In this document: piece after piece, positions 1 through 18,495 of the stretch
Numbering within the stretch: position 1 is the stretch's first letter
How the letters are laid out: each line of letters opens with the position of its first letter
Assembly (NCBI GenBank): GCA_001464065.1
Contig: LNDN01000024.1
Coordinates: forward strand, 1 to 48,119
Origin: Acidobacteria bacterium Ga0077522
GTDB lineage: Bacteria; Acidobacteriota; Vicinamibacteria; Vicinamibacterales; Vicinamibacteraceae
Reading direction: 5' to 3'
DNA length: 48,119 bases
Position numbers and translations under genes: made by a program
Notes under the pieces: model-generated
The model's input: only the letters and a program-made list of their open reading frames with translations
What the model was told of the DNA's origin: nothing
Database searches by the model: none

Positions 1-1157
1 CAGGGCACCGGCACCTCGCGCGGGGTGTTGGCGACGAGATCGACGGGGCATTCGGGGTCGGTGCGCTCGTGGTTGATCGTCGGCGGGATGCAGTGCCGAT
101 CGATCGTCAGGGCCAGGGCCGCCGCTTCCATGGCCCCCGCGGCACCGAGGCAGTGGCCGAACATCGCCTTCAGCGACGTCACCGGCATCGCAGCGGCCCG
201 ATCGCCGAAGACGACGCGCACCCCCCGCGCCTCCGCCTTGTCGTTCTGCGGTGTGGCCGTGCCGTGCGCGTTGACGTGCGTGACCTCGTCGGCGTTGACG
301 CCGGCGTCGGCCAGCGCCGCCCGAATCGTCGCCCCGATCGCCTGGCCCTCCGGCTCCGGCGCCGTCGGGTGATGCGCCTCGCACGTGAAGCTGTACCCGG
401 CCAGCTCCGCGTAGATGTGCGCGCCGCGGCGCGCCGCCCGATCCCAGTCCTCGAGCACGAGGATGGCGGCGCCCTCGCCGATGTTCATGCCCTGACGACC
501 GGCATCGAAGGGGCGACACGGCTGCGGGTCCATCAGTCGCAGGGCGTTGAACCCGGCGAAGGTCAGCCGCGACAGCGCGTCGGTCCCGCCAGCTAGCGCG
601 GCATCGAGTCGGCCTCGACGGATGGCGTCCACGGCCTGCCCGATCGCGATGGTGCTCGAGGAGCACGCCGCCATCAGGCACGAGCGCATCCCCTCCAGCC
701 CGAAGTGCGTCGCGACGACATCCACCGGGGTGCTCGAGAAGTGGTTGTGAATCCAGGTCGGCCGGGCCCGGTCCATCCCTTCGCGCCGCATCGTGAAGTA
801 GTACGACTCGTTGCGGACGAGATCGCCGGTGCCCGCACCGAGCATCACCCCGACCCGCGTGCGGTCGATGCCGCTGTCGAGCAGCCCCGAGTCCTCCAGC
901 GCCTCGGTGGCCGCCACCACCCCCATCAGATCACTGCGCGACCAGCGGCGGCGCTGGTAGGGCGTGTACCGGGCCTGCACCTCGGTCAGGTCGACCTCGG
1001 CGCCGATGCGGCTGCGGTAGCCCTCGGTGTCGAACAGCGTCACCGGACCGATGCCGCAGTGCCCCTCCAGCATGTGGGCCCACACCGCCTCGCGCTGCGT
1101 GCCGAGGGCGCAGATCATGCCGATGCCCGTGATCGCGATTCGCTTCTGGTCAGACAT
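1..1157 (-). CDS. beta-ketoacyl-ACP synthase (KAS II/FabF-like), C-terminus cut by window edge
   Basis: Condensing enzyme of type II fatty acid or polyketide synthesis, expected to be cytosolic and to work with the ACP at 4904-5161. The start is the ATG at 1157. The translation opens MSDQKRIAITGIGMICALG, the usual KAS N-terminus. The catalytic triad is visible: Cys in MAACSSSTIAIG (about residue 170), His in VNAHGTATPQND and His in SLKAMFGHCLGAAGAMEA. The frame stays open to base 1, so about the last 20-40 residues are missing. It lies 13 bp after the stop of the large exported protein and is transcribed the same way. A TAGAAT -10-like hexamer at 1168-1173 sits 10 nt before the ATG, so it may also have its own promoter. 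Given the neighbours it is probably the active partner (KS-alpha) of the triad-less ketosynthase at 6062-7282; that pairing is an inference. Confidence 0.9.
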   Translation of the reverse strand, partial: MSDQKRIAITGIGMICALGTQREAVWAHMLEGHCGIGPVTLFDTEGYRSRIGAEVDLTEVQARYTPYQRRRWSRSDLMGVVAATEALEDSGLLDSGIDRTRVGVMLGAGTGDLVRNESYYFTMRREGMDRARPTWIHNHFSSTPVDVVATHFGLEGMRSCLMAACSSSTIAIGQAVDAIRRGRLDAALAGGTDALSRLTFAGFNALRLMDPQPCRPFDAGRQGMNIGEGAAILVLEDWDRAARRGAHIYAELAGYSFTCEAHHPTAPEPEGQAIGATIRAALADAGVNADEVTHVNAHGTATPQNDKAEARGVRVVFGDRAAAMPVTSLKAMFGHCLGAAGAMEAAALALTIDRHCIPPTINHERTDPECPVDLVANTPREVPVP

Positions 1158-1167
1158 GCTCACGTGA

Positions 1168-1173
1168 ATTCTA
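1168..1173 (-). promoter_or_regulatory. possible internal -10 box before the ketosynthase
   Basis: TAGAAT on the minus strand, 10 nt before the ATG at 1157. It overlaps the stop codon of the upstream gene. The spacing fits the near-leaderless pattern seen elsewhere in the window. No clear -35 was found. Confidence 0.25.
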
Positions 1174-4065
1174 GAGCGGCTTGAGCAGCATCACCTGGAT
1201 GGTGGTCGATCCCAGTCCGCTGTAGCGGCTGGGCAGGAAGCTGTGGCCGACTTCGCCGCGGATGAACGCCGTCCGCCCCGGCACGCGGACGTTGAAGGCC
1301 ACGCCGACGCCCGTCAGCGGCTCCCAGGGCACCTCGACGACACCAGGCACTCCTCTGGGACGCACCCGGCCCCACGCCTGATCCACGAAGAGGTCCATCC
1401 GGTACTGATCGAGGATGTTGAACGAGTACTGCCCGCGGGCCATCGCCAGCTCGCCGTAGCGGACGCCGGCCGACGGCACGCCATGAATCTTCGTGTCGTC
1501 GAACAGGCCGAACTGATACTGGCTGAAGCGGTCGAGGCGGGTGCCGCCGAACCACGCGCCGTTGACGATGACCTTGCTGAACGCGCCGAGGTAGAACACC
1601 TTGGTCGCCGACGCCTGGTACTTGAGATAGGTCGAGGGCGTCGCCGCGAGCGCCGCCGGGTCCCCCCACGGCCGCCACGACAGGCGCCCCGACCAGGTGC
1701 CGTTGGCCGTGACCGAGTAGCCACCGCGGCGGTACTCGTAGAGCAGCCCGAGGCCGTTGGTGATGGTGCTGGTCGGCGTCACGTAGTCGTCGGCCGTCGT
1801 GGTGTTGCGCACGAAGCCATCGAAGCGGAACAGGTACTGCCCGGAGATGCGCTGATAGGTCGTCGCCTGCCAGCCGAGGTTCAGTCCCGTGGACAGCGGC
1901 CACGTCAGCAGGCTCTGGTCCTTCCGCTCCCCACCGGCGACGAACAGCCGGTCGGTGGACGGCGGCGCGATCGCGAAGAAGTCGATCGAGGCGTCGATCC
2001 GGTTGGCGATGGCACGCGGACGCTGGATGTTGCCCGCGGCGAGGACGCCCGCGAACAACACCGCGACCTGCGTGTCCTGCCGCCCCAGGAAGCGGAAGTT
2101 GAGGTAGTTGATGCCGCCGATCGGCAGCGGGAACTCGAAGCCGGGGTCGATGGTCAGGCCGAGCGCCAGCGCCTTGGCTTTCGTCGTGGCGATGTCGCTG
2201 ACCACGCGACGATCGCCTTCCTTGACGAAGTACCGCACGCCGACGTCCGTGTCGCGATACATCGTCCGATCGCCGGCGCGCGCCGCCTGACGCTGCGCCG
2301 CGAAGTCCTCCGGCGCCAGGTCGTAGTCGCTGAACGTGATGCGCCGCTCGACGAGCAGGTTGCGGCCCGCGATCAGGATCAGTTGCTGGTTGTAGATGCG
2401 CGACGGCAGCCACACCTCGTCGCCGGACGCCGTGCGCACGGCCGCGAAGTCCTGCGTCTCGTCGTTCGAGATCACGGGAGCCGACAACGCCGTCTGCACG
2501 GCCTGCTGGCGCAGACGCGCGAAGGTCTCCCGGTCGATCCAGACGGTGCCGCGGTAGAGCGACTGGTCGCGGACCTGGGGCTCGAACGCCACCACCCAGG
2601 CCGACCGGCCGTTGACCATCGCCGTGCCCTGCAGGCGATAGCGGTAGCGCGCGTCGAGTTCGATCGACAGCGGCGGGGTCAGGACCTTCTCGGGTTGCAG
2701 CAGCGGGAACGGCGGCCGCGGCTCGCCGAAGTGTGCGCCGTTGACGCTGAAGTCGCGCTCCTCCCACTCGGTGCCGTCGACGCGGTCGACGAAGAAGCGG
2801 TTCTCCGTGATGACGTCGAAGCCGGGATCGGTCACTGTCGGCCGGAAGTACTGCTGGATGCGTCCATCGACCACGTACCGGGGCGACCGCTCGCGCTCGG
2901 CGGCCTGACGCGCCTGATGGCGGGCAAGGATCTCCTCGACCGACAGCGTCCGCGCGCCGGTCACGTCTTCCTGCTGGACGAACCCCGCCTCCGCGCCCCG
3001 GTTGAAGTCGACCAGCCACGGCCCCGTCCCGGGCAGCACGATCGTCGCCTCGGTCCGCTGCGCCGCATCGTCGCGCACCACCCGTCGCGCCGGGTGGTCG
3101 CGTCCCGACACCGGGTCGCGGACCACGACGGTGCCGGCCGAGGGCAGGACGAGCGAGACGTCGAGGGTCTCGCCGCTCGCCGCGGCGTCGAGCACCAGGA
3201 ACGTGCCCAGCGTGCCGAGGTGATACAGCACGCGCGCACGGCGCGTCGCGGTGACGTCGCGTCCACTCGCACGCACGGTGAGCGCTCCCGGTGGCGTGGC
3301 CACGGGCGCCATGTCGCCGGCGTACAGATCCTGCAGGCGGACCGCGACGGGTCGCACGCCCGCCAGGGCCGATGGCGAGAGCCGATAGCCTCGCACGGCG
3401 ACAGGCGTCCCGAGTCGCGCGATCTCGTGATCGACGAACGCCCGTGCCGGTTCGACCTCCGGCAGCGGGATGTCCAGTTCGACGAGCGAGGCGCCAGGAT
3501 CGTGGTCGGCGACCCATGCCGCGGCGGCCTCCGGGTCGGCGCCCGGGGCGAGCGCGAGGCCATCGATCACGGGGGCGACGTCGGGGGTCAGGACGGCATC
3601 GCGCTGCGGGTCGGACGCGGCGGCCCCGCCGAGCACGATCGCGGCGGAGGCCGCCTGGGCGCGAATCTCCGCAGCGGCGAGCTTGATCAGGAAGGCGGTG
3701 CGCCTCGGGTCGCGGCCATCCGCCTGCAGTTCGACGGCCGCAAGCCGGGGCACCGCGGCGACGATGGCGCGGACGCGAGCCGACCAGGTCGACGGGTCGA
3801 CGGCCGGGCCATCGACGGCCGTGATGGTCAACCAGACGGCCGTGTCCTGCGGGATCGCCGGCGCCTCCGACTGGATGTCTGGCACCTCGGCGCTCACCGT
3901 CACACGCACGGCGGCGGGAAGCGACGCCGGCATCGTGGCCCGCTCGACGCCGGTGTCGAACACGAGCCGCGGCAGCGTCGGCGCCTGCGCCTGCCCGGCC
4001 GCGGCAGGCGCCGCCACGGTCAGCAGGCCGAGCAGCAGCCCGGCACCGCTCAGGCGCGCAGCCAC
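1171..4065 (-). CDS. large exported multidomain protein with C-terminal outer-membrane beta-barrel-like region
   Basis: 964 residues if it starts at the GTG at 4065, which puts a signal peptide (VAARLSGAGLLLGLLTVAAP then AAAGQAQA) at the very N-terminus and overlaps the deacetylase tail by 16 bp. By eye there are four parts. Residues about 35-230 look like a degenerate (beta/alpha) barrel related to glycoside hydrolases. Residues about 235-340 look like a beta-sandwich. Residues about 370-650 resemble the outer-membrane lipoprotein-sorting/RseB-like fold (GTVWIDRETFARLR, then ERRITFSDYD). Residues about 680-964 are alternating aromatic/hydrophobic strands (for example YLFRFDGFVRN, GLLYEYRRGGYSVTANG) typical of an outer-membrane barrel. 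No catalytic residues can be assigned. Sitting inside the lipid cluster, it may handle the product or a glycan at the outer membrane; that is inference. I do not recognise a named family for the whole protein. Confidence 0.75.
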   Translation of the reverse strand: MAARLSGAGLLLGLLTVAAPAAAGQAQAPTLPRLVFDTGVERATMPASLPAAVRVTVSAEVPDIQSEAPAIPQDTAVWLTITAVDGPAVDPSTWSARVRAIVAAVPRLAAVELQADGRDPRRTAFLIKLAAAEIRAQAASAAIVLGGAAASDPQRDAVLTPDVAPVIDGLALAPGADPEAAAAWVADHDPGASLVELDIPLPEVEPARAFVDHEIARLGTPVAVRGYRLSPSALAGVRPVAVRLQDLYAGDMAPVATPPGALTVRASGRDVTATRRARVLYHLGTLGTFLVLDAAASGETLDVSLVLPSAGTVVVRDPVSGRDHPARRVVRDDAAQRTEATIVLPGTGPWLVDFNRGAEAGFVQQEDVTGARTLSVEEILARHQARQAAERERSPRYVVDGRIQQYFRPTVTDPGFDVITENRFFVDRVDGTEWEERDFSVNGAHFGEPRPPFPLLQPEKVLTPPLSIELDARYRYRLQGTAMVNGRSAWVVAFEPQVRDQSLYRGTVWIDRETFARLRQQAVQTALSAPVISNDETQDFAAVRTASGDEVWLPSRIYNQQLILIAGRNLLVERRITFSDYDLAPEDFAAQRQAARAGDRTMYRDTDVGVRYFVKEGDRRVVSDIATTKAKALALGLTIDPGFEFPLPIGGINYLNFRFLGRQDTQVAVLFAGVLAAGNIQRPRAIANRIDASIDFFAIAPPSTDRLFVAGGERKDQSLLTWPLSTGLNLGWQATTYQRISGQYLFRFDGFVRNTTTADDYVTPTSTITNGLGLLYEYRRGGYSVTANGTWSGRLSWRPWGDPAALAATPSTYLKYQASATKVFYLGAFSKVIVNGAWFGGTRLDRFSQYQFGLFDDTKIHGVPSAGVRYGELAMARGQYSFNILDQYRMDLFVDQAWGRVRPRGVPGVVEVPWEPLTGVGVAFNVRVPGRTAFIRGEVGHSFLPSRYSGLGSTTIQVMLLKPL

Positions 4066-4867
4066 GCCTCTGCGTCCGGCAGTTCGCAGAGTGGTCCGAA
4101 CTCGGCGCCCGCCAGCACCTCCCTGAGACGTGCCCGGAAGCCCGACAAAGTGGCGGCGGCAGCCGCACGTGCGGCGGGGCGGGATCGATCTCCCATGGGT
4201 GCACAGTAAGGACGGCGGGATCGCCCTTGCGGTTGTTGGCGGCGATGGCGTCGAGCACGGCGCCGGGCTCGGCCTTGCGCAGGCCCCAGCCCCACCCGAG
4301 CGGCACGGCCTGCCCGGCGAGCCGACCGACGAGGGGTGGCAGTTCGAGCAACGCGCCGGCCACCGTGGCAATCGGGTGCGGGCGCCGCGGGAACGCCGGC
4401 GACCCGACGCGCGCGACAGGCGCGCGGCTCGCGTCGAGGCGGATGCCCTCCTCGACGAGGATGGGGAGGGCCCAGGGCGCGTGCTGATTCAGGGACCACT
4501 CGGGAGCCCTGAAGGTGGTCAGGGGCCCGGCGCCGGCCGCCCGCACGGCGGCGATGTTCAGGCGCAGGTCGTCGCGGAAGGCCTCGGGCGAGAGGTCGAA
4601 CACGCGCCGGTGCCAGTAGCTGTGCAGGCCGACCTCGTGACCGCCGTCACGAATCTCGCGCACCAGCGCCGGAAACCGCTCGGCGACCCAGCCGACGATC
4701 AGGAACGTGGCGCGATTGCCTGTCGCGGCGAGGTCGTCCAGCAGCGCGCGCGTCGTCGGCACGACGCGGCTGTCGAGGGCATCCCACTGCGAGGGCGGCA
4801 GACGATCGTCGATGCCGCAGATGTGGAACCAGTCCTCGACGTCGACCGTGAAGGCGTTGGCAGCCAT
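4050..4867 (-). CDS. polysaccharide deacetylase (NodB/DUF3473 type) with a disrupted reading frame near the 3' end
   Basis: NodB-fold deacetylase that would remove N-acetyl groups from a sugar polymer or glycolipid. Translation from the ATG at 4867 gives FTVDVEDWFHICG, where the DVEDWFH motif supplies the catalytic and metal Asp. It continues with NRATFLIVGWVAERFP, GGHEVGLHSYWHRRVFDL (metal His residues), TTFRAPEWSL and LTVHPWEIDP. After VRLPPP at about 4155 the frame no longer encodes the family's C-terminus. That continuation lies in other frames: CRRHFVGL in one, then LSGFRARLREVLAGAEFGPL and the end PDAEAWLRA in a third, stopping at 4050. Together they make the roughly 275 residues normal for the family. 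Without a frame change the frame runs on as arginine-rich nonsense through the next gene. It lies 36 bp after the ACP gene. It could be a real pseudogene or a sequence error. Confidence 0.8.
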
Positions 4868-4903
4868 TTCACCAGCCGCACGCGCAGCCCGCGGCGCAGC
4901 GCA

Positions 4904-5161
4904 CTACGCGGGCTTCCTCTGGGCCTCGATGTACTCGGCGATGGCATCCACCGACTGCAGCACCTTGCCGCCGGTCTCCTCGTCGCCGATGACGACACCG
5001 AAGGATCGCTCGATCTCCAGTACCAGCTCGAGGGCGTCGATCGAGTCGAGGCCGAGGCCGGCACCGAACAGCGGCGCGGCGCTGTCGATCTCGTCGGCCG
5101 CAATCGGCAGCTTGAGGGCGCGCACGATCGCCGCCTTGATGTCGCTACGAAGATCAGTCAT
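4904..5161 (-). CDS. acyl carrier protein
   Basis: 85-residue carrier protein. The phosphopantetheine site is the Ser of GAGLGLDSIDALELVLEIE (about residue 37), the canonical DSxxxLEL helix. Acidic composition and length match AcpP-like proteins. The start is the ATG at 5161 (MTDLRSDIKAAIVRALKL), with AAGG a few bases upstream; an upstream in-frame start at 5182 would overlap the end of fabG. It lies 7 bp after the FabG stop and before the deacetylase, in one minus-strand operon. It presumably carries the growing acyl or polyene chain for the two ketosynthases and the ketoreductase, rather than serving housekeeping fatty acid synthesis; this rests on context. Confidence 0.93.
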   Translation of the reverse strand: MTDLRSDIKAAIVRALKLPIAADEIDSAAPLFGAGLGLDSIDALELVLEIERSFGVVIGDEETGGKVLQSVDAIAEYIEAQRKPA

Positions 5162-5168
5162 GACTGCC

Positions 5169-5921
5169 TTACACGAGCCCACCGTCGACGCCGATCACCT
5201 GACCGGTGACGTACGCGGCCGCGTTGGAGCTGAGAAACGCCACCACCTCGGCGACTTCCGCCGGGGTGCCGAGCCGCCCGACGGGCACGTTGCGCAGGTG
5301 CGCCTCACGGGTGGCCTCGGGAATCGCTGCCGTCATGTCGGTCTGGATGAGCCCCGGCATCACGGCGTTCACGAGGACGCCCTTGGGCGCCAGCTCGCGT
5401 GAGAGCGTCCGGGTGAGGCCGATCAGGCCGCCCTTGGACGCCGCATAGTTCGCCTGGCCGGGCAACCCGGCGACGGCGCTCGGCGAGGTGAGATTGATGA
5501 CCCGCCCCCACTTGCGGACGAGCATGCCGCGCACCACCGCCCGCGTGCAGAAGAAGGCCCCGTCGAGATTGGGACGCAGCACGGCGTCCCACTTCTCGCG
5601 GTCCATCATCATCAGGTACCCGTCACGCGTGACGCCGGCGTTGTTGACCAGGATGTCGATGGGTCCCAGCGCCGCCGAGGCGTCGGCGACCAGCTGCTGC
5701 ACCTGCGCTTCGTCTGCCACGTCGCAGGGACCGGTCCAGACGCGCGCCCCTTCCGCCTGCAATGTACGGACGATCTCGCGGGCCGGCTCTTCGCGCTCGC
5801 GGTAGGAGAACGCGACCGCCGCACCGCGACGGGCCAGCGCCTCGACAATGGCGCGACCGATGCCGCGCGATCCGCCAGTGACCAGCGCGACCCGGCCAGA
5901 CAGGGCAAGCGATTCGTACGG
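5169..5921 (-). CDS. fabG: 3-oxoacyl-ACP reductase (FabG-like SDR)
   Basis: NADPH-dependent ketoreductase of the short-chain dehydrogenase family, reducing the 3-oxoacyl-ACP made by the ketosynthase. It shows the Rossmann motif TGGSRGIG near residue 17, NNAG (ILVNNAGVTRDG), the catalytic Ser in INLTSPSAVAG, the YxxxK pair in YAASKGG, and the C-terminal GQVIGVDGGLV. The chosen start is the GTG at 5921 (VPYESLALSGRVALVTGG), because AGGGA lies 6 nt upstream and the protein then has the usual length of about 250 residues; the frame is open back to a GTG at 5954. It is followed 7 bp later by the ACP gene. A TATAGA-like element near 5970 could give a leader of about 40 nt, so this gene, unlike many neighbours, looks Shine-Dalgarno dependent. 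Confidence 0.93.
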   Translation of the reverse strand, partial: PYESLALSGRVALVTGGSRGIGRAIVEALARRGAAVAFSYREREEPAREIVRTLQAEGARVWTGPCDVADEAQVQQLVADASAALGPIDILVNNAGVTRDGYLMMMDREKWDAVLRPNLDGAFFCTRAVVRGMLVRKWGRVINLTSPSAVAGLPGQANYAASKGGLIGLTRTLSRELAPKGVLVNAVMPGLIQTDMTAAIPEATREAHLRNVPVGRLGTPAEVAEVVAFLSSNAAAYVTGQVIGVDGGLV

Positions 5922-5993
5922 CACGCAGCATCCCTGGCGGCACCCGGGCGGCACCGCCGAAGGAACAGTCTATAACAGCGGGCTCGATCGGCC

Positions 5994-6011
5994 GGGAGTC
6001 GGGAGTCGGGA
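5994..6011. repeat. heptamer repeat GGGAGTC, two and a half copies
   Basis: GGGAGTC GGGAGTC GGGA lies between the triad-less ketosynthase and fabG. The same heptamer forms a longer array at 12075-12140. Confidence 0.6.
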
Positions 6012-6020
6012 CCACCGGTC

Positions 6021-6044: not shown

Positions 6045-6061
6045 AGCCAGGCCCCGGCGTG

Positions 6062-7282
6062 CTACTGGCAGCGCAGGACGACGCTGTAGTTGGTGCCGCC
6101 GCTGGCGAAGCTGTTCACGAGGATGTACGGCGTGCGCAGCGGGGCCGGGGACCCGATCACCCAGCCCAGGGGCGCACAGGCGGGATCGGGGGCCGACAGG
6201 CCAGCCGTCGGCGCGACCAGCCCGCGCCGCCCGGCCAGCACGGCCACGACGAGCGACGCGGCCGCGGCCATCCCCCCTTCGCCGACGGCCCCCTTGACGG
6301 AGGTCGTCGTGACCGGGCGGTCCGCGAAGACCTCGGCGATGGCCGCCGACTCGAGGCGGTCGAAATCGATGGCGCCGTTGGCCGCGGCATAGACCGCGCC
6401 GACCTCGGCCGCGTCGATGCCGGCCTCGGCCAGGGCGTCGCGCATGCAGCGGACGAGGGCGGCCGTCTCGGTGGGCCAGGCATTGATCGCAGTCAGCCCG
6501 GCCGTCGCGCCGACGCCGATCACGGTCGCCAGGACCGCCGCCTCGCGCGCCTGCGCCCGGTCCAGGTCCTCGACGATGGCCACGAAGCCGCCCTCCCCCA
6601 TCACGAAGCCGTTGCGGGTGCGGTCGAAGGGGCGCGCACCTTCCGGGTAGGCGCCGTCGTGCGACAACACCCCGAACCAGTCGTGCACCTGGAAGTAGAG
6701 GTCGTAGATGTCCTCGGCCCCGCCGGTGACCAGCGCGCCGGCCTTGCCGGCCCGCACCAGATCGGTGGCCAGCGCCACCGCCGCCAGGCCCGACGCCTCC
6801 TTGTAGCTCAACGTCGTGTTCGGCCCGCGCAGCTTCTCCTCGAGGGCGATCAGACTCGCGGCGGCGTTGCCGACGGTGTTGCTGAAGAGCATCGCGGGCG
6901 CGCCGGTCGGCCCGAGGTCGAGCAACCGATCGAGGAACTCGCCGGTGGAGTGCACCCCGCACGTACACGTGCCGAAGACCACCCCCACGTCGTCGTAGCC
7001 GGCGTCGCTGCGCGGGAGTCCCGCGGCGTCGAGCGCCAGCCGGGCCGAGGCCACCGACAAGGCACCGACCTCGTCCATGCGGCGCAGCTTCATCGGATGG
7101 ATGAACGCGGCAGGGTCGAAGCCCGACAGCTCGGCCGCCTGCCGGGCCTGGCGGGCCGTCGTGTCGAACGACGTGATGGGACGGATGCCCGTGCGGCCCT
7201 CGAGCACGGCCTCGAGAAAGGCGTCGGTCTGCCCGAGGCTGGAGCAGGCGGCAACCCCGGTGATTGCGGCCTGTCGCTGCAC
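6062..7282 (-). CDS. ketosynthase-like protein lacking the catalytic triad (chain-length-factor type)
   Basis: 406 residues with the thiolase-fold KAS pattern (ITGVAACSSLGQTDAF, FSNTVGNAAASLIALEE, NGFVMGEGGFVAIVEDLDRA, NSFASGGTNYSVVL). The nucleophilic Cys region reads LSYKEASGLAAV with no Cys. The first His motif reads AANGAIDFDRLE instead of HGTxxxxND, and the second reads KGAVGEGGMAAAA instead of KxxxGHxxGAAG. It therefore cannot condense by the normal mechanism and most likely forms a heterodimer with an active ketosynthase, as KS-beta/chain-length factors do. I chose the GTG at 7282 (VQRQAAITG) because it gives the normal short KAS N-terminus and leaves a 25-bp divergent spacer; an ATG at 7309 also exists but overlaps the start codon of the divergent gene. 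Confidence 0.85.
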   Translation of the reverse strand: MQRQAAITGVAACSSLGQTDAFLEAVLEGRTGIRPITSFDTTARQARQAAELSGFDPAAFIHPMKLRRMDEVGALSVASARLALDAAGLPRSDAGYDDVGVVFGTCTCGVHSTGEFLDRLLDLGPTGAPAMLFSNTVGNAAASLIALEEKLRGPNTTLSYKEASGLAAVALATDLVRAGKAGALVTGGAEDIYDLYFQVHDWFGVLSHDGAYPEGARPFDRTRNGFVMGEGGFVAIVEDLDRAQAREAAVLATVIGVGATAGLTAINAWPTETAALVRCMRDALAEAGIDAAEVGAVYAAANGAIDFDRLESAAIAEVFADRPVTTTSVKGAVGEGGMAAAASLVVAVLAGRRGLVAPTAGLSAPDPACAPLGWVIGSPAPLRTPYILVNSFASGGTNYSVVLRCQ

Positions 7283-7285
7283 GGC

Positions 7286-7299
7286 GGGTACGTTACCAT
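7286..7299. promoter_or_regulatory. probable bidirectional leaderless promoter core, ketosynthase-like / LolA-like
   Basis: On the plus strand TACCAT (7294-7299) ends 8 nt before the ATG at 7308. On the minus strand TAACGT lies about 7 nt before the GTG at 7282. The two boxes overlap in a near-palindrome (GGTACGTTACC). No Shine-Dalgarno precedes either start. Confidence 0.4.
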
Positions 7300-7307
7300 T
7301 TCGATTC

Positions 7308-11173: not shown

Positions 11174-12159
11174 GCCTCGCCGCGCCGGTGCGCTGGGTTA
11201 CCCACCGTCTCAACGGGTCCTTCATCGTCGGTGGCAGTTATCTGGGATCGCGGTACGCCCCGCTGCCGCTGTCGTGGCCGGTGGCCCACGCGGGCGCCTG
11301 GTTCGTCAGCCACACGATGGCGAGTGTGCGGGATGCGCTGGTCGACAACCTGCGCGCGGTCTTCCCGCAGGAGTCCGACGACCAGTTGCGGCGGCGTGCC
11401 TACCGCACGTGTCACACGTACACGGACGACTGGATGGACTTCATGCGATCGCTGTCGTGGTCGCGCGAGAAGGTCCTCGAACGCTTCGTCTACGAGGAGG
11501 CCCATCACCTGAAGGACGCGCTCGCGCTCGGCCGGGGCGCGATTCTGGTGACGGGCCACTTCGGCAACTGGGAAGCTGGCGCGGTGCTGATGAAGGCCCT
11601 GGGCGTACCGCTCACCGTGGTCGCCATGCCGGAGGCCGATCCCGCGGTCAACTGGCTGCGACACCGCGTGCGCACGTCGCTCGACGCCGACACCATCGAA
11701 GTGCGGCAGTCGCTCGACACCCCGTTGCAGATTCGTCGTCGCCTGTCGGAGGGCCGGGCCGTCGCGATGCTGATGGATCGGCATGTGGCGCGCGACCGCG
11801 TGCCGGTGACCATGTTCGGCCGCGAGGCGCACTTCATGGGGGCCCCGGCGATGCTGGCGTATCTGACCGGCGCGCCGCTGGTGCCGATCTTCCTCGTGCG
11901 CGAGGGCCGCGGCCGCTTCCGCGCGCGACCGCACGAGCCGATCCTCGTCGATCGAACGGGGCAGCGCGATCTCCAGGTGCGGGCCACCGCGCAGCGCGTG
12001 GCCACGCTGCTCGAACGCGAGATCGAGAAGCGGCCCGACTGCTGGTACCAGTTCTATCGCTACTGGGAAGCACCGGGAGTCGGGAGTCGGGAGTCGGAAG
12101 TCGGGGGGCCGGAGTCGGAAGTCGGGACGCCGGAGTCAGGCATCGGGGATCCGGCCTGA
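11170..12159 (+). CDS. LpxL/HtrB-like lipid acyltransferase with repeat-encoded tail
   Basis: 329-residue member of the lipid A biosynthesis acyltransferase family. The catalytic HX4E motif is in ILVTGHFGNWEAGAVLM (about residue 130). VAMLMDRHVARDRVPVTMFG and APLVPIFLVREGRGRFRA are further family blocks, and WYQFYRYWE marks the normal C-terminal end. The last 25 or so residues (GVGSRESEVGGPESEVGTPE and beyond) are encoded by a degenerate GGGAGTC heptamer array and are not part of the fold. The start overlaps the glycosyltransferase stop as ATGA; the next gene starts immediately after the TGA. Such acyltransferases in pigment clusters are proposed to attach the polyene acyl chain to a lipid anchor. 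Whether it acts on lipid A itself cannot be told. Confidence 0.9.
   Translation: MSLAAPVRWVTHRLNGSFIVGGSYLGSRYAPLPLSWPVAHAGAWFVSHTMASVRDALVDNLRAVFPQESDDQLRRRAYRTCHTYTDDWMDFMRSLSWSREKVLERFVYEEAHHLKDALALGRGAILVTGHFGNWEAGAVLMKALGVPLTVVAMPEADPAVNWLRHRVRTSLDADTIEVRQSLDTPLQIRRRLSEGRAVAMLMDRHVARDRVPVTMFGREAHFMGAPAMLAYLTGAPLVPIFLVREGRGRFRARPHEPILVDRTGQRDLQVRATAQRVATLLEREIEKRPDCWYQFYRYWEAPGVGSRESEVGGPESEVGTPESGIGDPA
12075..12140. repeat. degenerate GGGAGTC heptamer array inside the acyltransferase 3' end
   Basis: Three exact GGGAGTC units at 12075-12095 are followed by GGAAGTC, a GGGGGGCC interruption, GGAGTC, GGAAGTC, GGGACGCC and GGAGTC. It is translated as the low-complexity tail of the acyltransferase and stays in frame to the stop. 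Confidence 0.8.
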
Positions 12160-13236
12160 ATGGACCCGATCTCGCACCTGCTCTTCGCGCGCATGGTCGC
12201 CGCGACGCGGACGTCGCACGTGCCACGCGGCGTGGTGGCGGCAACGGTCCTCGGCGGGCTGGCGCCCGACATCGACGCGGCCGTGATGGCCGTGGGCTGG
12301 GACGTGTACCTGCAGTGGCACGAGGTGGGTACGCACGCACTCGTGGGGACGCCCGTGGTGGCCCTGGCGACAGGCGCGTTCGTGCGGACGTGGGCGCGTG
12401 CGGCACCGCTGAGCGCGCTGGTCTTCGGCGCCTGGCTGGGCACGCTCAGCCATGTGTTCTTCGACCTGTTCTCCGGCGCCACGATCCGGCTGTTGTGGCC
12501 GGTGTGGTCGGCGCCCATCTCGGCACCGGTCGTGGCGATGGCCGACCCGATCGTCATCGCCGTCCTCATCGTCGGCGCGCTGGCCTTGTGGGTGTGGCCG
12601 CGGGTGCCACGCACAGCGGCGGCGCTGGTGATGGCACTGCTGGCGCTCGTCAGTGCCGTCAAGCTGACGACGCGGGCGCGCGCGGCGGCCGCCTACGGCG
12701 CGGCGGTGACGGCCGCGGGCACCGCGCCGCCCGAGTCCATGGCGGTCGAGGCCGAGTGGGGCTCATGGACGGGATGGCTGTTCTTCGACCGCCTGCCGGA
12801 CGGCCAGCTGCGCGCCTGGCGGGTCGATGGCTGGACGCGGGACGCCCGCCTCCGTTTCGCGCACGCCCCCGCCAGCGACGCGCCGTTCGCTCGCCAGTCG
12901 CTGACCGACTTCGCCACGGCACGCAACTTCGTCCCCGTCCACCCCTTCGCGTTCGCGTCGGCGCGCGACAACGGCAACGGCGGCGTGGTGTTCTGGTCGG
13001 ACGCCCGCTTCTGCTGGACACCGGCCGAACGGGCCGATGCGCAGGACGACGTCCCACACCAGGACGTACGCCCGGCCCGCGGCCCCCTGCGCTGCGCGCT
13101 GTGGTTCGGCGGCTCGTACGACGCCGACGGGCGTCCCCACGAGGCCCTCGTCTGGCTTGGCGGCCATCTCCAGCGCCGATCACCAGGGCGATGGATGCTC
13201 GAAGGACGGAGGACCGAGGAGGGAGGACGGAGGTAG
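12160..13236 (+). CDS. YdjM-like (DUF457) inner-membrane metal-dependent hydrolase family protein
   Basis: 358 residues. The N-terminal half (1-175) has the family signature MDPISHLLFARMVAA (His near the N-terminus), a PDID motif (GGLAPDIDAAVM), WHEVGTHALVG and GTLSHVFFDLFSGATIRLLWP, with about four TM helices. The conserved His/Asp residues face the membrane and resemble the metal site of the YdjM/LexA-regulated hydrolase family. The C-terminal half (about 180-345) is a soluble domain I do not recognise. The last residues (EGRRTEEGGRR) are encoded by the start of the purine-rich repeat that follows. The gene begins directly after the acyltransferase stop, so it belongs to the same operon. 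A role in lipid handling is inferred from context only. Confidence 0.8.
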   Translation: MDPISHLLFARMVAATRTSHVPRGVVAATVLGGLAPDIDAAVMAVGWDVYLQWHEVGTHALVGTPVVALATGAFVRTWARAAPLSALVFGAWLGTLSHVFFDLFSGATIRLLWPVWSAPISAPVVAMADPIVIAVLIVGALALWVWPRVPRTAAALVMALLALVSAVKLTTRARAAAAYGAAVTAAGTAPPESMAVEAEWGSWTGWLFFDRLPDGQLRAWRVDGWTRDARLRFAHAPASDAPFARQSLTDFATARNFVPVHPFAFASARDNGNGGVVFWSDARFCWTPAERADAQDDVPHQDVRPARGPLRCALWFGGSYDADGRPHEALVWLGGHLQRRSPGRWMLEGRRTEEGGRR

Positions 13237-13350: not shown

Positions 13351-13355
13351 GGTGA

Positions 13356-14339
13356 TTACCGCCCTGGGGGTTTCTGCCGCCAGTAGGACGCGAGGACGCT
13401 GCCGGCGGCGTTCATCCACGGGCCGAAGATCGCCGCCGCGAGGCCGGCGTCGGTGCTGTGCAGCACGCTGATGGCCAGGCCGGAGGCCATGCCGGCGTTC
13501 TGCAGGCCGACCTCGATCGACGCCGTGCGCGAGTCCGATTCGTTGAGCCCGGCACCGCGCGCGCCCCAGTAGCCCAGCGTGAAACCGATCAGGTTGTGCA
13601 GCGCGACGACCGCGAACAGGGTCGCCGCCACGGCGAGCAACTGGTCGCGCGAGTTGGCCGTGATGATCGTGATGATGGCCGCGATGGCGATCATCGACAC
13701 GAGGGGCAGGATGCGCGGCATCCAGCGTTGATCGCGCAGCAGCTTGTTGAAGACCAGCCCCGCGATCACCGGCAGGATGATCATCTTCATGATCGAGATC
13801 ATCATGTCCCAGGCATCGATCGGCACGAAGCGACCGGCGAGCAGCTGCATGGCGAGAGGCGTCAACACCGGCGACAGCAGCGTGGAGCACGCCGTCATCG
13901 TCACCGACAGGGCGACGTTGCCGCCGGCGAGGTAGGTCATCACGTTGGACGCCACGCCACCGGGCGCCGCACCCACGAGGACGACGCCCGCGGCGACCTC
14001 GCCCGTGAAGCCGAACAACCGCGCGAGCGCGTAGCCGGTGATCGGCATCACGCAGAACTGCAACAGGATGCCGACGAGCACCCCTCGTGGCATGGCCAGC
14101 ACCCGGGCAAAGTCACCGAGGCTCAGCGTGGTGCCCATCCCGAACATGATGATCTGGATGAGCGGGACGATGAGCCCGGTCAGCTTGTAGCCGCCCACCG
14201 TGAGGAACAAGCCGGGGTGGAACATCGCGGCGGCGACGCACGTGAAGACCACGGCGGTGAAGGTCAGGCCGGAGAAGCGAGCCGAACGACTCACCCAGAA
14301 CGACAGGGCGGCCAGCGCCCCCAGCACCAGGATGCTCAT
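13356..14339 (-). CDS. bile acid:sodium symporter (BASS/SBF) family transporter
   Basis: 327-residue inner-membrane protein with about nine or ten TM helices. Family features are FGMGTTLSLGDFARVLAMPR (about residue 66), GVVLVGAAPGGVASNVMTYLAGGNVALSVT (the conserved PGG...SN...AxGN substrate/Na+ site), VLTPLAMQLLAG, and SIEVGLQNAGMASGLAI. BASS proteins carry bile acids, 2-keto acids, pantoate or similar organic anions with sodium. In this cluster it might import or export an organic acid precursor, but nothing in the sequence fixes the substrate. TAGACT lies 9 nt before the ATG at 14339, so the mRNA is probably nearly leaderless. The gene ends 5 bp inside the repeat region shared with the convergent YdjM-like gene. 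Confidence 0.92.
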   Translation of the reverse strand: MSILVLGALAALSFWVSRSARFSGLTFTAVVFTCVAAAMFHPGLFLTVGGYKLTGLIVPLIQIIMFGMGTTLSLGDFARVLAMPRGVLVGILLQFCVMPITGYALARLFGFTGEVAAGVVLVGAAPGGVASNVMTYLAGGNVALSVTMTACSTLLSPVLTPLAMQLLAGRFVPIDAWDMMISIMKMIILPVIAGLVFNKLLRDQRWMPRILPLVSMIAIAAIITIITANSRDQLLAVAATLFAVVALHNLIGFTLGYWGARGAGLNESDSRTASIEVGLQNAGMASGLAISVLHSTDAGLAAAIFGPWMNAAGSVLASYWRQKPPGR

Positions 14340-14348
14340 CGGCTCCAG

Positions 14349-14354
14349 AGTCTA
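14349..14354 (-). promoter_or_regulatory. -10-like box of the BASS transporter gene
   Basis: TAGACT on the minus strand, 9 nt before the ATG at 14339, with no Shine-Dalgarno between. No clear -35 was seen. Confidence 0.35.
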
Positions 14355-14385
14355 GTCCGTCCGGGCCCGTCGGCGTCAGCGCCGA

Positions 14386-15555
14386 TCAGCGACCGTCGGT
14401 GCGCACGCCGGCGCTGATGAGGACGTTGGCGAAGGGCGTGCCGTCGCCCATGGGCTGGACGTGCGGGGCGAAGCCTTCCTCGTACAGCAGCCGGCGCCAG
14501 TCAGCCTGCGACCGGAAGTGGAAGCGCTGACGCCAGCGACCCGTCACCAGGGCCTTCAGCGTGTTGCCGAGGCGCACCATGCGGAAGCGCCATCCGGCAT
14601 CGGCATCGGCCTCCCGCACGAGCAGACGACCAGTCGGCGGCATGGCGGCACGAATGGCCTTGAGCAGTTCGCGCTGATCGGCCTCAGGCATCATGTGCAG
14701 CACGTCGAACAGCAGCACCATGTCTGCGTGCGGCAATCCAGCCTCCCGCGCATCGCCGGTCAGGACCTCGGCCTCGTGCTCGAGGGCTCGCACGGCGATC
14801 CCGGCGACGCGTGGACGGAGTTCGACGCCGACGAGCCGGGCGAACTGCGGCGGGTCGGGTCGGGTCGTGTCCCAGGTGCCCTGCGCCGCCGTGTCCTGGG
14901 CTTCCGCGACCAGCGCGAGGGTGAGGCCCTGCCCGCAGCCGATGTCGAGCAGCGTGCCCGTGGCTGCCGGAAATTCGGCAGTCAGCGCCGCGGCGTAGAC
15001 GGGATCGCCCGAGAGCTTGCCGCGGGCGAACTCCCACGCGGTGATCCCCGAATCGAGATAGCGGTCGCTCGCGCGACGCACCAGGAGCTGGAAGAACGGG
15101 TCCCTGGCCGGCCGGCGCGCCGCATATGTCACGAAACCGCCCATCGCGCCCACGATCACTCCGACGACGACGCTGCCGACCACCAGGTCGGCGCCGAACT
15201 CCCAGATGCGGTCGGGGGTGAGCATGTCCCAGGCGAGCGTCAGGAAATGCCCACGCCGCACGAAGGATCCCGTCTGGACCTCGGCGTAGAAGAGCGGTGG
15301 GACGATCAGGGGATTGATGACATTCGCGGCGAGGTACATCTTCAGGCGGTTCAGGCGAAAGGCGACACCCGCCAGCCAGCACAGCCCGAAATGGACGCCC
15401 CAGAACGGCGTGCACCCGACCATGAGGCCGACGCCGATGGCGACCGACTCGCGCCCGCGCGTGTCGCCCTCGGTCCGCAGCGCATGGATGGCGCGCTGCA
15501 GGCGGGAGGCCCGCGACAGCGCGCGCGCGCTGCCGGCCAACGGAACCGTGGTCAT
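14386..15555 (-). CDS. DUF2062 membrane domain fused to a class I SAM-dependent methyltransferase
   Basis: 389 residues. Residues about 15-155 match DUF2062 (ESVAIGVGLMVGCTPFWGVH, AANVINPLIVPPLFYAEVQ, then two more hydrophobic helices ending GVIVGAMGGFVTYAARR). Residues about 175-385 are a methyltransferase: LLDIGCGQGLTLALVAEAQD is motif I, GVELRP and LTGDAREAGLPHADMVLLFDVLHMMPEADQ hold the following SAM-binding acidic residues, and PPTGRLLVREAD the later strand. The C-terminal part (RFHFRSQADWRRLLYEEGF) is also typical. Both functions occur as separate or fused genes in aryl polyene and xanthomonadin-type loci. The likely task is membrane-anchored methylation of the aryl head group, which is inferred. 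It diverges from the chorismatase gene and has CATAAT 8 nt before its ATG. Confidence 0.88.
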   Translation of the reverse strand: MTTVPLAGSARALSRASRLQRAIHALRTEGDTRGRESVAIGVGLMVGCTPFWGVHFGLCWLAGVAFRLNRLKMYLAANVINPLIVPPLFYAEVQTGSFVRRGHFLTLAWDMLTPDRIWEFGADLVVGSVVVGVIVGAMGGFVTYAARRPARDPFFQLLVRRASDRYLDSGITAWEFARGKLSGDPVYAAALTAEFPAATGTLLDIGCGQGLTLALVAEAQDTAAQGTWDTTRPDPPQFARLVGVELRPRVAGIAVRALEHEAEVLTGDAREAGLPHADMVLLFDVLHMMPEADQRELLKAIRAAMPPTGRLLVREADADAGWRFRMVRLGNTLKALVTGRWRQRFHFRSQADWRRLLYEEGFAPHVQPMGDGTPFANVLISAGVRTDGR

Positions 15556-15562
15556 CTTCAGG

Positions 15563-15569
15563 TATTATG
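15563..15569. promoter_or_regulatory. overlapping divergent -10 boxes, methyltransferase / chorismatase
   Basis: The heptamer TATTATG reads TATTAT (15563-15568) on the plus strand and CATAAT (15569-15564) on the minus strand. The minus-strand box is 8 nt before the ATG at 15555, giving a leaderless message. On the plus strand there is no start codon that close in the right frame, so the chorismatase would have a leader of about 35 nt. Confidence 0.45.
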
Positions 15570-15609
15570 ACGGCTCGTCCCGCGCAGCCGGATGCGGGGT
15601 CGTGCAGTG

Positions 15610-16524
15610 ATGCCAAAGACCACGGTCACGACGCCAATCGCGCTTGCGCCGCTTGCCCCGCTGCCACCCTCCTGGGTGGATGCCCTGGTGGGTCCCAGCC
15701 CTTCGGTCTCTCGTACAGACGCGCTCGATGGCACCGTCGAGGTGCGCACCGGTCCCGACTTCACGCACGTCGCCATCACCATCCCGCAGGCGCACACGCT
15801 GCCGCCGGATCGACTGCACGAGCACGTCCGCGACGCCTACCTCTCGGTGGCGGCCACCCTGAACGCGCAGCAGCGGCACCCGGTGCGGTTCTGGAACTTC
15901 GTGCCACACATCCACACGCCGTCGGGGGCTCACCTCGACCGCTACATGATCTTCAACGGCGGCCGGTTCGCCGCCTGCGAGCACTGGCACGGGTCGCCCA
16001 ACGACTTCGATCACACGCTGGCCGCGGCCTCGGGCGTCGGCGTGCTCGGCGAAGCCCTCGCGATCCACTGCCTCGCCGCAGACGATGCCGGTGAGCCCGT
16101 CGAGAATCCGCGGCAGGTCCCGGCCTACAAGTATTCGCGGCGGTATGGCCCCCGCCCGCCCTGCTTCGCGCGCGCCACGCGCCTCGCACGCCAGGTGAAC
16201 GGCGCGTGGTGGCTGCTCGTGGCCGGCACCGCGAGCATCTGCGGCGAGTTGACGGTCCACGCCGGTGACGTCGAGGGCCAGACCGTGGAGACCCTCGACA
16301 ACCTCGACGCGCTGCTCGCCGCCGCCGAGGACAAACGCGGCGCCAGTGACGCGCGTGCCCGCTTCTCCAGCCTGCGCGTCTACATCGTCCGTCCCGACGA
16401 TCTGGGCGTGGTGCGCGATCGGATCGCGGCGCGCTATGGCGAGATCCCCGACATCGAGTTTGCGCAGTCCGAGTTGTGCCGCGCCGATCTCCTCGTCGAG
16501 ATCGAAGGCATCGCCGAACTGTAG
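15610..16524 (+). CDS. chorismatase family protein (FkbO/Hyg5/XanB2-like), hydroxybenzoate-forming candidate
   Basis: 304 residues. Family landmarks in order are HPVRFWNFVPHIHTP, LDRYMIFNGGRFAACEHW, AASGVGVLGEALAIHCLA, VENPRQVPAYKYSRRYGPRP followed by PCFARATRL, LLVAGTASICGELTVHAGDV and EGQTVETLDNLDALL. These match chorismatases, which hydrolyse chorismate to a dihydrodiol or form 3-/4-hydroxybenzoate; XanB2 supplies the aromatic starter of xanthomonadins. Which outcome applies cannot be decided by eye. In this cluster, with an AMP ligase nearby, a hydroxybenzoate product is the natural guess. The ATG at 15610 is preferred because GGGGT lies about 10 nt upstream; an in-frame ATG at 15592 would add six residues. 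The stop codon TAG is itself the beginning of REP-like copy 2. Confidence 0.87.
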   Translation: MPKTTVTTPIALAPLAPLPPSWVDALVGPSPSVSRTDALDGTVEVRTGPDFTHVAITIPQAHTLPPDRLHEHVRDAYLSVAATLNAQQRHPVRFWNFVPHIHTPSGAHLDRYMIFNGGRFAACEHWHGSPNDFDHTLAAASGVGVLGEALAIHCLAADDAGEPVENPRQVPAYKYSRRYGPRPPCFARATRLARQVNGAWWLLVAGTASICGELTVHAGDVEGQTVETLDNLDALLAAAEDKRGASDARARFSSLRVYIVRPDDLGVVRDRIAARYGEIPDIEFAQSELCRADLLVEIEGIAEL

Positions 16525-16542
16525 CGGCCGGACGTGTCCGGC
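16521..16542. repeat. REP-like palindrome, copy 2
   Basis: GTAG, then GCCGGAC, GT, GTCCGGC with perfect 7-bp arms. Its TAG is the stop codon of the chorismatase. It lies in the 40-bp gap between convergent genes and may act as a hairpin terminator. Confidence 0.6.
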
Positions 16543-16564
16543 AGGCAGGTCGTCCGGCCTCGGC

Positions 16565-16993
16565 TCAGCGCGACGGCACGTCGGCCAGCGTCAGGCTGCC
16601 CCTCGCCACGAGGACGCCATCGGCCGTCACCGTCCCTTCGATCTTGAACAACCCGCCCATCCGACCGACCACCCGCGCCTGCGCCTCGAGGACGACGTCC
16701 GTGCCACATCCGGCCGGGAAACGGAAGCCGTCGACGGCCGCGACACGCAGCGCCCGCGGCTGATGGGGTTCCCCTGGACGCGACGTGCCCGCCGCGAGCC
16801 CACCGGTCTGCGCCAGCAGCTCGATCAGCACGATGGCCGGCACGACCGGCTGGCCGGGAAAGTGGCCCTGGAAGTAGAAGTCGTCGGCGCGGGTCAGGCG
16901 ACGGCAGACCGCCTGCTGTCCCGGCTCGACGGAGACGACCTCCTCGACCAGGCGCATCGGCGGCGTGTGCGGCAGCAGCGAGAGATACTCCAC
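16565..16993 (-). CDS. 3-hydroxyacyl-ACP dehydratase, hotdog fold (FabZ/ApeI-like)
   Basis: 142-residue single hotdog domain. The active-site block is DDFYFQGHFPGQPVVPAIV (His at about residue 44 in GHFPG, the FabZ signature), followed by LIELLAQTGGLAAG where the conserved Glu sits on the long central helix. The C-terminal strands read FRFPAGCGTDVVLEAQARVVG and FKIEGTVTADGVLVARGSLT. It would dehydrate 3-hydroxyacyl-ACP to the enoyl form, and in a polyene pathway without an enoyl reductase this leaves conjugated double bonds. The start is GTG at 16993, just 23 bp from the divergent ligase start. The N-terminus YLSLLPHTPPMRLVEEV is standard for FabZ/FabA-like proteins. Confidence 0.9.
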   Translation of the reverse strand: MEYLSLLPHTPPMRLVEEVVSVEPGQQAVCRRLTRADDFYFQGHFPGQPVVPAIVLIELLAQTGGLAAGTSRPGEPHQPRALRVAAVDGFRFPAGCGTDVVLEAQARVVGRMGGLFKIEGTVTADGVLVARGSLTLADVPSR

Positions 16994-16997
16994 GGCT

Positions 16998-17003
16998 TAT
17001 CAT
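16998..17003. promoter_or_regulatory. possible shared divergent -10 box, dehydratase / ligase
   Basis: TATCAT (16998-17003) faces the ligase ATG at 17017 with 13 nt between. On the minus strand the same bases read GATGATAA, 3-5 nt before the GTG at 16993. The whole spacer is 23 bp, so both genes must be read from overlapping promoters or from promoters inside each other. Confidence 0.35.
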
Positions 17004-17016
17004 CGCCCACGGCCGC

Positions 17017-18495
17017 ATGACCTCCCACTCCCCCATCGCCGAGGCCTTTGCCAGCGTGCTGCGCGACCGCGGCGATGACACGCTGCTGATGGCGCCGAGC
17101 GAGTCGCTCGTGCTCTCGGCGCGCACGCTCGACGCGCTGGCCATTTCACTGTCGACCGCCCTCGCCCGAATCCCGCTCGCCCCGGGCCACCTCGTCATCA
17201 CGAGCCTCGGCAACGCCGCGGTGATGCCGGCCGTGACGCTGGCCTGTCTCCGCGACCGCCTGCCACTGATGCCCGCGGATCGCAGCGTGCCGGTGGCCGA
17301 GCTCCTCGCCCTCGCCACCCGGTGGGACGCGGCCGCGGTGATCGCGCCCGAGGGCCTCGACCTGCATGCCGGCGGCACGGGGCCCGCCGACCCGACACGC
17401 GCACGGGTGCGGATGCCGATCGGTCACGGACTCGCCGCCTGGGTCGCCGCCGCGCTGCCAGCGCCGGGCCGACACGGCGCCGCGGCCGTGTTGAAGCTCA
17501 CCTCCGGCAGCACCGGCGCTCCTCGCGCCACCTGCACCGAGGAACGGCACCTCGTGGCTGACGTGTGCCACATCGTCGAGGCGATGACGATCGGTCCGCG
17601 CACACCGCAGTTCGGCGTCATTCCGCTGTCGCACTCGTACGGGTTCAGCAACCTGCTCCTGCCGCTGCTGTGGCAGGGCACGCCACTGCTGGTGCGCCCG
17701 CAGTTCGTCCCGACGCAGGTGGCGCCGGACATCGTGTCGGCGCGACTCGAGACGTTCGCCGGGGTGCCGTTCATGTTCGAACACCTCGCCGCCCACCAGG
17801 CGCTGCCGCCGCTGCCGTCTCTGCGCCTGGTCCTCTCGGCCGGCGCGCGCCTGTCGTTCGAGGCCGTGACCGCGTTCCACGCCGTGACCGGGCTGAAGGT
17901 GCGGTCGTTCTATGGGTCGAGCGAAACCGGTGGCATCTGCTTCGACGACAGCCCGCGGCTGGACGCGCGTGTCCCGGTGGGGCGTCCCATGGGCGCCACC
18001 CGCGTCGATCTCGTGGCCGACGCGGACGCCCCCCAGGGCACGGGTCGCATTCGCGTCTCCGGCCCGAACGTGATCGATCGGTATGCCGACGACGAGGGGC
18101 CGCACCTCGGCGGGACGTTCCTCACGGGCGACTACGGGCGCGTCGAGGCCGATGACACGTACGTGCTGGTGGGACGCGTCGCGTCGTTCGTCAACGTGGC
18201 GGGACGCAAGGTCGTGCCGCAGGAGGTCGAGGCGGCACTGCGCGCCCTGCCCGGCGTCTCGGACGCCGTCGCCCTCGGCATCGACGATGCGGTGCGGGGC
18301 CAGGCGCTCGGCGTGTGCCTGGTGAGTGAGGCCCCGTGGACGGCGCGCACGGTGCGGGAGGCGCTGGCCCCGCACCTCGCCCCGTACAAGCTGCCGCGCG
18401 TCGTGGTGGTCACGCGAGCCCTGCCGCTGACCGACCGCGGCAAGGTCGATCGCGCGGCGATCGCCCAGCTGCTGGCGCGCGCGTCTGCGTCGTGA
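17017..18495 (+). CDS. AMP-dependent acyl/aryl ligase (ANL superfamily)
   Basis: 492-residue adenylating enzyme that would activate a carboxylic acid, probably the hydroxybenzoate starter, and transfer it to CoA or the ACP. Visible motifs are LKLTSGSTGAPRAT (ATP loop, about residue 160), PLSHSYGFSN, RSFYGSSETGG (A5), GTFLTGDYGRVE (A7 Asp), GRVASFVNVAGRKVVPQEVE (A8 hinge) and ALPLTDRGKVDR with the C-terminal catalytic Lys. It is slightly short for the family because the N-terminal subdomain is compact. Similar ligases sit in aryl polyene loci next to the chorismatase or ammonia-lyase step. It is the last gene of the cluster and ends facing the osmC-like gene. Confidence 0.9.
   Translation: MTSHSPIAEAFASVLRDRGDDTLLMAPSESLVLSARTLDALAISLSTALARIPLAPGHLVITSLGNAAVMPAVTLACLRDRLPLMPADRSVPVAELLALATRWDAAAVIAPEGLDLHAGGTGPADPTRARVRMPIGHGLAAWVAAALPAPGRHGAAAVLKLTSGSTGAPRATCTEERHLVADVCHIVEAMTIGPRTPQFGVIPLSHSYGFSNLLLPLLWQGTPLLVRPQFVPTQVAPDIVSARLETFAGVPFMFEHLAAHQALPPLPSLRLVLSAGARLSFEAVTAFHAVTGLKVRSFYGSSETGGICFDDSPRLDARVPVGRPMGATRVDLVADADAPQGTGRIRVSGPNVIDRYADDEGPHLGGTFLTGDYGRVEADDTYVLVGRVASFVNVAGRKVVPQEVEAALRALPGVSDAVALGIDDAVRGQALGVCLVSEAPWTARTVREALAPHLAPYKLPRVVVVTRALPLTDRGKVDRAAIAQLLARASAS

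Follow-up and report, generated by a model that had tools for sequence, protein, structure and literature searches.

Few bacterial pigments are as widespread as the aryl polyenes, which are aryl-headed conjugated polyene carboxylates carried on a lipid. For the route of the finished lipid into the outer membrane only LolA- and LolB-like proteins have been brought forward in Escherichia coli, with ApeM, ApeL and the LolB-like DUF3261 protein ApeN proposed to carry the lipid to the outer membrane and its flipping a guess (PMC8253772). A locus of the xanthomonadin type, the arcuflavin (arc) genes, has been described in Azoarcus sp. BH72 (PMC3949708), and aryl-polyene loci in Acidobacteriota have already been reported by antiSMASH (PMC8692599). 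Here we describe a locus at positions 1-18495 of contig LNDN01000024.1 from Acidobacteria bacterium Ga0077522. The window analysed is the whole of this contig (C24; 48,119 nucleotides), which belongs to a 5.44-Mb assembly of 429 contigs.

The locus is of the xanthomonadin/aryl-polyene type and lies in a Luteitalea-type soil acidobacterium. We give a probability of about 0.7 to the reading that it serves to build and export a yellow, membrane-bound aryl-polyene lipid similar to xanthomonadin, with a tripartite outer-membrane barrel protein replacing ApeN. A first-pass annotation of this DNA had proposed such a lipid locus with an outer-membrane component of its own, and the protein matches to the Ape system, the ketosynthase tree and the predicted barrel fold all agree with it; the genes that it listed likewise lie at the positions given and on the strands expected, according to gene calls and to Pfam and NCBIfam searches.

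Comparison with described loci

Seven proteins of the window have direct matches in the ape cluster of E. coli CFT073 (PMC8253772), namely two ketosynthases (KS1 and KS2), an acyl carrier protein (ACP), a FabG-type reductase, an MMPL exporter, a dehydratase and a ligase. The counterpart of the ACP is ApeE, that of FabG is ApeQ, and those of the dehydratase, ligase and exporter are ApeP, ApeH and ApeM, respectively, while KS1 corresponds to both ApeR and ApeO. The family 2 glycosyltransferase (GT2) and the LpxL-like acyltransferase of the window match the two ends of ApeJ, which is split here into two genes, and the window LolA falls in the same Pfam family as ApeL. ApeN (DUF3261), ApeK, ApeG and the second ACP of the ape cluster were not found in the window locus, which holds a chorismatase and the tripartite barrel protein in addition to the E. 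coli set.

With the arc locus the window shares a chorismatase, a ligase forming adenosine monophosphate (AMP), a ketosynthase pair, an ACP, a reductase and a dehydratase, along with a glycosyltransferase, an acyltransferase, LolA, an exporter, a methyltransferase, a polysaccharide deacetylase and an outer-membrane protein (PMC3949708). The last two had been placed outside the usual set in the first-pass annotation, a view that finds no support in the arc locus with its arcN, a polysaccharide deacetylase, and arcC, an outer-membrane protein of another family (PMC3949708). Unlike the window, the arc genes are divided between two unlinked loci and include a halogenase and dialkylresorcinol genes. 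The arc outer-membrane protein is annotated as MltA-interacting, whereas that of the window is a fusion of a LolA fold with an Omp85 barrel, and the arc chorismatase is of the XanB2 type (3- and 4-hydroxybenzoate), whereas that of the window bears a Hyg5 signature. As far as could be searched, a LolA-fold/Omp85 fusion tied to an aryl-polyene locus is new.

The gene set is far beyond what chance would assemble, because it is syntenic in the nearest complete relative in our search (G125; same genus, a single contig of 7,480,314 bp), which we take to be Luteitalea pratensis, and because the operon is also kept in other Vicinamibacteria. Gene order in G125 is the same except for a BASS-type transporter gene, and protein identity ranges from 65 to 92%. 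The locus would put a pigment pathway resembling that of xanthomonadin into a genus of soil acidobacteria from which L. pratensis has been cultured; the name Luteitalea means yellow rod.

Chain assembly

KS1 (3..1163, minus strand, cut by the contig edge) is a catalytic beta-ketoacyl synthase (Pfam ketoacyl-synt) whose triad C167/H300/H337 is intact in the window and kept in aligned orthologues. KS2 (6062..7309, minus) is a chain-length-factor-like ketosynthase by domains, residues and tree; E171, A309 and E344 stand at its triad positions, and aligned orthologues are likewise triad-less, their Cys position being taken by Glu or Gln. In a maximum-likelihood tree KS1 groups with ketosynthases of other acidobacterial polyketide synthase pairs and, less firmly, with E. 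coli ApeO (support of 98/99 for this set as a whole). KS2 falls with the second ketosynthase of those pairs (100/99). Both stand apart from the FabF group, and the exact places of E. coli ApeO and ApeR are unsure because of long branches. The ACP (4904..5161, minus; PF00550) has 47% identity to ApeE, the FabG-type ketoreductase (5169..5924, minus; Pfam and NCBIfam) matches ApeQ at 38%, and the FabZ/ApeP-like 3-hydroxyacyl-ACP dehydratase (16565..16993, minus; PF07977 and PF22817) matches ApeP. These enzymes had been listed in the first-pass annotation together with the ligase, chorismatase, LolA, MMPL, GT2, LpxL-like and methyltransferase genes treated below, and the whole parts list is confirmed by domain searches and by the residues.

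FabG, FabZ-like, LpxL-like and MMPL proteins also occur in lipid pathways, and the locus might on that ground be thought to modify lipid A or fatty acids without forming any polyene. We regard this as very improbable, given a ketosynthase and triad-less partner that fall outside FabF, the presence of a chorismatase and a ligase, the matches to Ape proteins, and the window genes and the G125 flank, neither of which shows genes for lipid A or core fatty-acid synthesis next to the locus. The G125 genes to the left of KS1 encode an S9 peptidase, a zinc-ribbon protein and a band-7 protein (the matching contig of the window's own genome is C23). The left flank is therefore no pathway for fatty acids or lipid A, in line with what the polyene assignment of the first-pass annotation had called for.

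The outer-membrane protein

The gene at 1171..4065 (minus) encodes an exported protein of 964 residues, assigned as a tripartite outer-membrane protein from an AlphaFold2 model, fold searches and its place in an operon-linked monophyletic branch. The full-length model has a mean predicted local distance difference test score (pLDDT) of 89 and a predicted template modelling score (pTM) of 0.71. Its 60-row alignment kept seven relatives apparently in the wrong frame (L127, L138, L143, L146, L147, L152 and L153), which were excluded when the middle domain was modelled and when the tree of barrels was built. The N-terminal domain (residues 32-355; 3001..3972, minus) has a predicted PslG/GH39-like fold (VIA match to PslG 5bx9, Z 19.4, root-mean-square deviation 4.3, 298 aligned). 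The middle domain (residues 376-590; 2296..2940, minus) adopts the LolA/LolB superfamily fold in the model; folded alone it reached pLDDT 89 and pTM 0.86, with VIA matches to 3bk5 (Z 11.7), Porphyromonas gingivalis LolA3 (11.6), the DUF1329 protein 4z48 (11.3) and P. gingivalis LolB (9.5). Pfam LolA_like (PF17131) is matched by this domain in 44 of 53 members, and PF03888 (MucB_RseB) is matched as well; DUF5686 is a weak match, on which no paper was found in the literature. The C-terminal beta-barrel (residues ~602-964; 1174..2262, minus) matches BamA, TamA and CdiB with VIA Z of 21-22 over ~300 residues, and AlgE only lower.

The protein thus has the predicted barrel fold of the Omp85 proteins and differs from them in the PslG-like and LolA-fold domains that precede the barrel, where the model showed no recognisable POTRA domains. 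We considered a classical Omp85 protein of the POTRA type and judged it improbable, the domains ahead of the barrel matching other folds. Another likeness is to AmeABCD of Castellaniella defragrans (PMC6394551), which combines an HAE3 pump, a periplasmic protein of the LolA superfamily (DUF1329) and an outer-membrane protein for a hydrophobic cargo; there, however, the cargo is monoterpenes, the DUF1302 outer-membrane part is separate and the LolA-fold part is not fused to a barrel.

A scan of public genomes returned 70 proteins related to the barrel protein, every one from an entry titled Acidobacteria/Acidobacteriota or groups within, and 101 of 297 sampled Acidobacteriota genomes (about a third) have a member. 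Every relative at 40% identity or above (13 of 13) sits with genes of this locus, as far as contigs reach usually in the order KS2-(FabG)-ACP-deacetylase-barrel-(PHP gene)-KS1; in L106 and L109 a chorismatase adjoins the barrel instead. None of the remaining 57 relatives, which are more distant, has a KS2-type gene beside it, and three of these have a FabF-like ketosynthase within 10 kb. The operon-linked barrels form one monophyletic branch (SH-aLRT 100; one label change). A PHP-associated-domain gene stands between barrel and KS1 in several relatives (e.g. L102:12929-13912) and is missing from the window, whose barrel and KS1 genes almost abut.

A search for DUF3261, the LolB-like family of ApeN, gave no match in 12 acidobacterial genomes, although the same model detects E. 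coli ApeN itself (E 1.6e-38); its absence is not proven, because the control genomes of that search gave none either. On the grounds of the predicted fold, the operon linkage and the lack of a DUF3261 match, we infer that the barrel protein accepts the pigment lipid at the outer membrane or inserts it there. A further and tentative suggestion, which we hold somewhat less probable than not, is that vicinamibacterial aryl-polyene loci have a dedicated one-protein outer-membrane translocon, in which an Omp85-type barrel, equipped with its own LolB-like lipid receptor and with a pseudo-glycosidase domain, would take the polyene lipid from LolA and insert or flip it into the outer leaflet. This translocon would go back to a single recruitment from an acidobacterial family that is spread over the phylum. 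With a LolB-like domain and a barrel in one protein, held in an operon by a single branch of such a family, the outer-membrane step becomes accessible to a single-gene test.

The PslG-like N-terminal domain, the deacetylase that adjoins the barrel in most loci and, in several of them, the PHP-domain gene that separates the barrel from KS1 could instead mean that the outer-membrane protein, the deacetylase and GT2 handle a glycan: the N-terminal domain would bind a polysaccharide, the barrel would export or anchor it, and the pigment would be glycan-decorated. We consider this unlikely, as no polysaccharide synthase, flippase or export genes were seen in the locus, the middle domain is of the lipid-carrier type, the top barrel matches are to Omp85 proteins, with AlgE lower, and the N-terminal domain has no conserved catalytic Glu. 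An active PslG-like hydrolase was itself rejected: the two catalytic glutamates of GH39/PslG are not conserved, no column of the N-terminal domain exceeds 42% Glu in 50 rows, and at the two columns richest in Glu the window carries Ala and Gly, so that hydrolytic activity of this kind is unlikely.

Putative export and anchor genes

Between KS2 and the YdjM gene, four plus-strand genes would serve export and anchoring of the polyene lipid. They encode a LolA-like periplasmic carrier (7308..8003; PF03548, with NCBIfam LolA and flexirubin LolA2 below cut-off), an MMPL/HAE3 exporter of the resistance-nodulation-division superfamily (8034..10490; PF03176, with TIGR00921 and an HpnN-like model below cut-off, and a match to ApeM), the GT2 glycosyltransferase (10487..11173; PF00535, aligning with ApeJ residues 8-240) and the LpxL-like acyltransferase (11170..12159; PF03279, HX4E motif, aligning with ApeJ residues 362-558). 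In some relatives a B12-binding radical S-adenosylmethionine (SAM) gene lies between LolA and MMPL (L108:4638-6092).

Proposed starter supply and route

The chorismatase (15592..16524, plus; PF21168, with TIGR04444 below cut-off) was aligned with Hyg5 (5ag3) and FkbO. Compared with Hyg5 and published residues it has the Hyg5-type Gly/Gly/Cys and catalytic Glu (G148, G212, C296 and E303), a signature tied to 3-hydroxybenzoate in published work; chorismatases of this type (CH-II) convert chorismate to 3-hydroxybenzoate and pyruvate. The Azoarcus paper warns that the product of a chorismatase cannot safely be read from an alignment (PMC3949708), and for that reason 3-hydroxybenzoate is only the likely product; a XanB2-like mixed product may be formed as well. 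The AMP-forming aryl-acid ligase (17017..18495, plus; PF00501 and PF13193) matches ApeH at 24%, and a fusion of DUF2062 with a methyltransferase (14386..15555, minus; PF09835 and a methyltransferase domain) is the probable head-group methyltransferase.

These parts probably form a single pathway, in which we infer the starter, the site of methylation, the anchor and everything that concerns transport by the barrel. The chorismatase would convert chorismate to 3-hydroxybenzoate, which the ligase would activate and load onto the ACP; KS1, with KS2 as chain-length partner, would extend the chain by malonyl units, FabG and the dehydratase would leave conjugated double bonds, and the DUF2062-methyltransferase would probably O-methylate the head. 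A lipid anchor may be joined to the chain by GT2 and the LpxL-like acyltransferase, the MMPL/HAE3 pump may lift the polyene lipid out of the inner membrane and LolA may ferry it through the periplasm. The tripartite protein, in place of ApeN, would receive the lipid on its LolA/LolB-fold domain and insert or flip it through or beside the Omp85-type barrel.

Several observations weigh against this route. A strong chorismatase match is missing in 8 of the 15 cluster-bearing genomes, G229 and the 7.7-Mb G305 among them; seven of the eight carry no completeness rating, but G229 is rated 100% complete, so aromatic starters made via a chorismatase are not universal in these loci. The window genes searched included neither a thioesterase nor a phosphopantetheinyl transferase nor an ApeG-like gene. 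The fold matches of the barrel protein give shape and not cargo, and the general role of its family is other or broader, because homologues outside the branch do not lie beside such genes. No chemical or genetic data on this organism were found in the sources consulted.

Chorismatase genes are scattered over the phylum (20 of 297 Acidobacteriota genomes) and clearly present in seven of the 15 cluster-bearing genomes. The first-pass annotation had held that relatives without a chorismatase would speak against it; such genomes occur among more distant relatives (G229, G305 and others) and not among G125, G298, G299 and G116, all of which have the gene. Since the core is kept without a chorismatase in several relatives, the starter module varies, and the core might be a factory for polyene or polyunsaturated lipids with no fixed starter, chorismatase and methyltransferase being a separate module present in Luteitalea and some relatives and another starter being used by others. 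G229, G304, G305, G306 and others keep KS2-ACP-deacetylase-barrel-KS1 with no chorismatase, and the two starter genes are largely gained or lost together: the methyltransferase is found in six of the seven genomes with a chorismatase versus one of the eight without (Fisher one-sided p 0.009, with kinship and gaps in metagenome-assembled genomes not controlled). After its ligase the G305 locus has instead a Trp_halogenase-like gene, a UbiE-type methyltransferase gene and a radical SAM gene with an HMPTM zinc ribbon (L176:11967-16016). We nonetheless judge this reading improbable, given the chorismatase in all of G125, G298, G299 and G116; an unlinked enzyme could also supply 4-hydroxybenzoate. 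The reading of an aromatic starter thus holds for the genus of the window and should not be stretched over the whole family of loci.

Other acidobacterial classes show a second arrangement, in which a chorismatase, an ACP, paired ketosynthases, FabG, GT2, a ligase and sometimes a deacetylase lie together (L037, L038, L039, L044, L045 and L109). A carotenoid may also account for any yellow colour; crtI-family genes gave no match above cut-off in four genomes, the window's genome having only short Rossmann-type matches and its relatives longer sub-threshold ones, and no paper on an L. pratensis pigment was found in the literature.

Accessory and flanking genes

The first-pass annotation had also named a deacetylase, the 964-residue exported barrel protein, YdjM and BASS as additions to the usual set. 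The presence of all four stands (Pfam and NCBIfam, with the barrel from AlphaFold2), and it is an essential place for YdjM and BASS in the system that is doubtful. The YdjM-like membrane protein (12160..13236, plus; PF04307) is accessory at most, being found among the 15 genomes only in the window's own (G000), G125 and G298. The BASS-type transporter (13356..14339, minus; PF01758) lies probably outside the system; G125 has at its place 5.2 kb of other genes, among them one of the enolase superfamily and one for a TonB-type receptor, and no BASS. Given these distributions neither protein looks essential. The polysaccharide deacetylase (4053..4867, minus) is of the XrtA type with DUF3473 (PF01522 and PF11959, with TIGR03006 below cut-off). 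Near 4145-4148 it has ~22 nt fewer than its G125 orthologue, which shifts the frame of the last 32 codons and reflects either an assembly error or a real lesion.

In G125 a Trp_halogenase-like gene (L028:7789-9372) stands ~6 kb to the left of KS1. It may be a tailoring gene, and contig C21 in the genome of the window contains a match to it. The same flank (L028 ~11120-11200) contains a dispersed repeat of ~77 nt, of which the window's genome holds dozens of copies on many contigs and both strands. To the right of the cluster (19422-22532), a TolB-like propeller region is fused to a gamma-glutamyltranspeptidase and adjoins OsmC and DinB genes.

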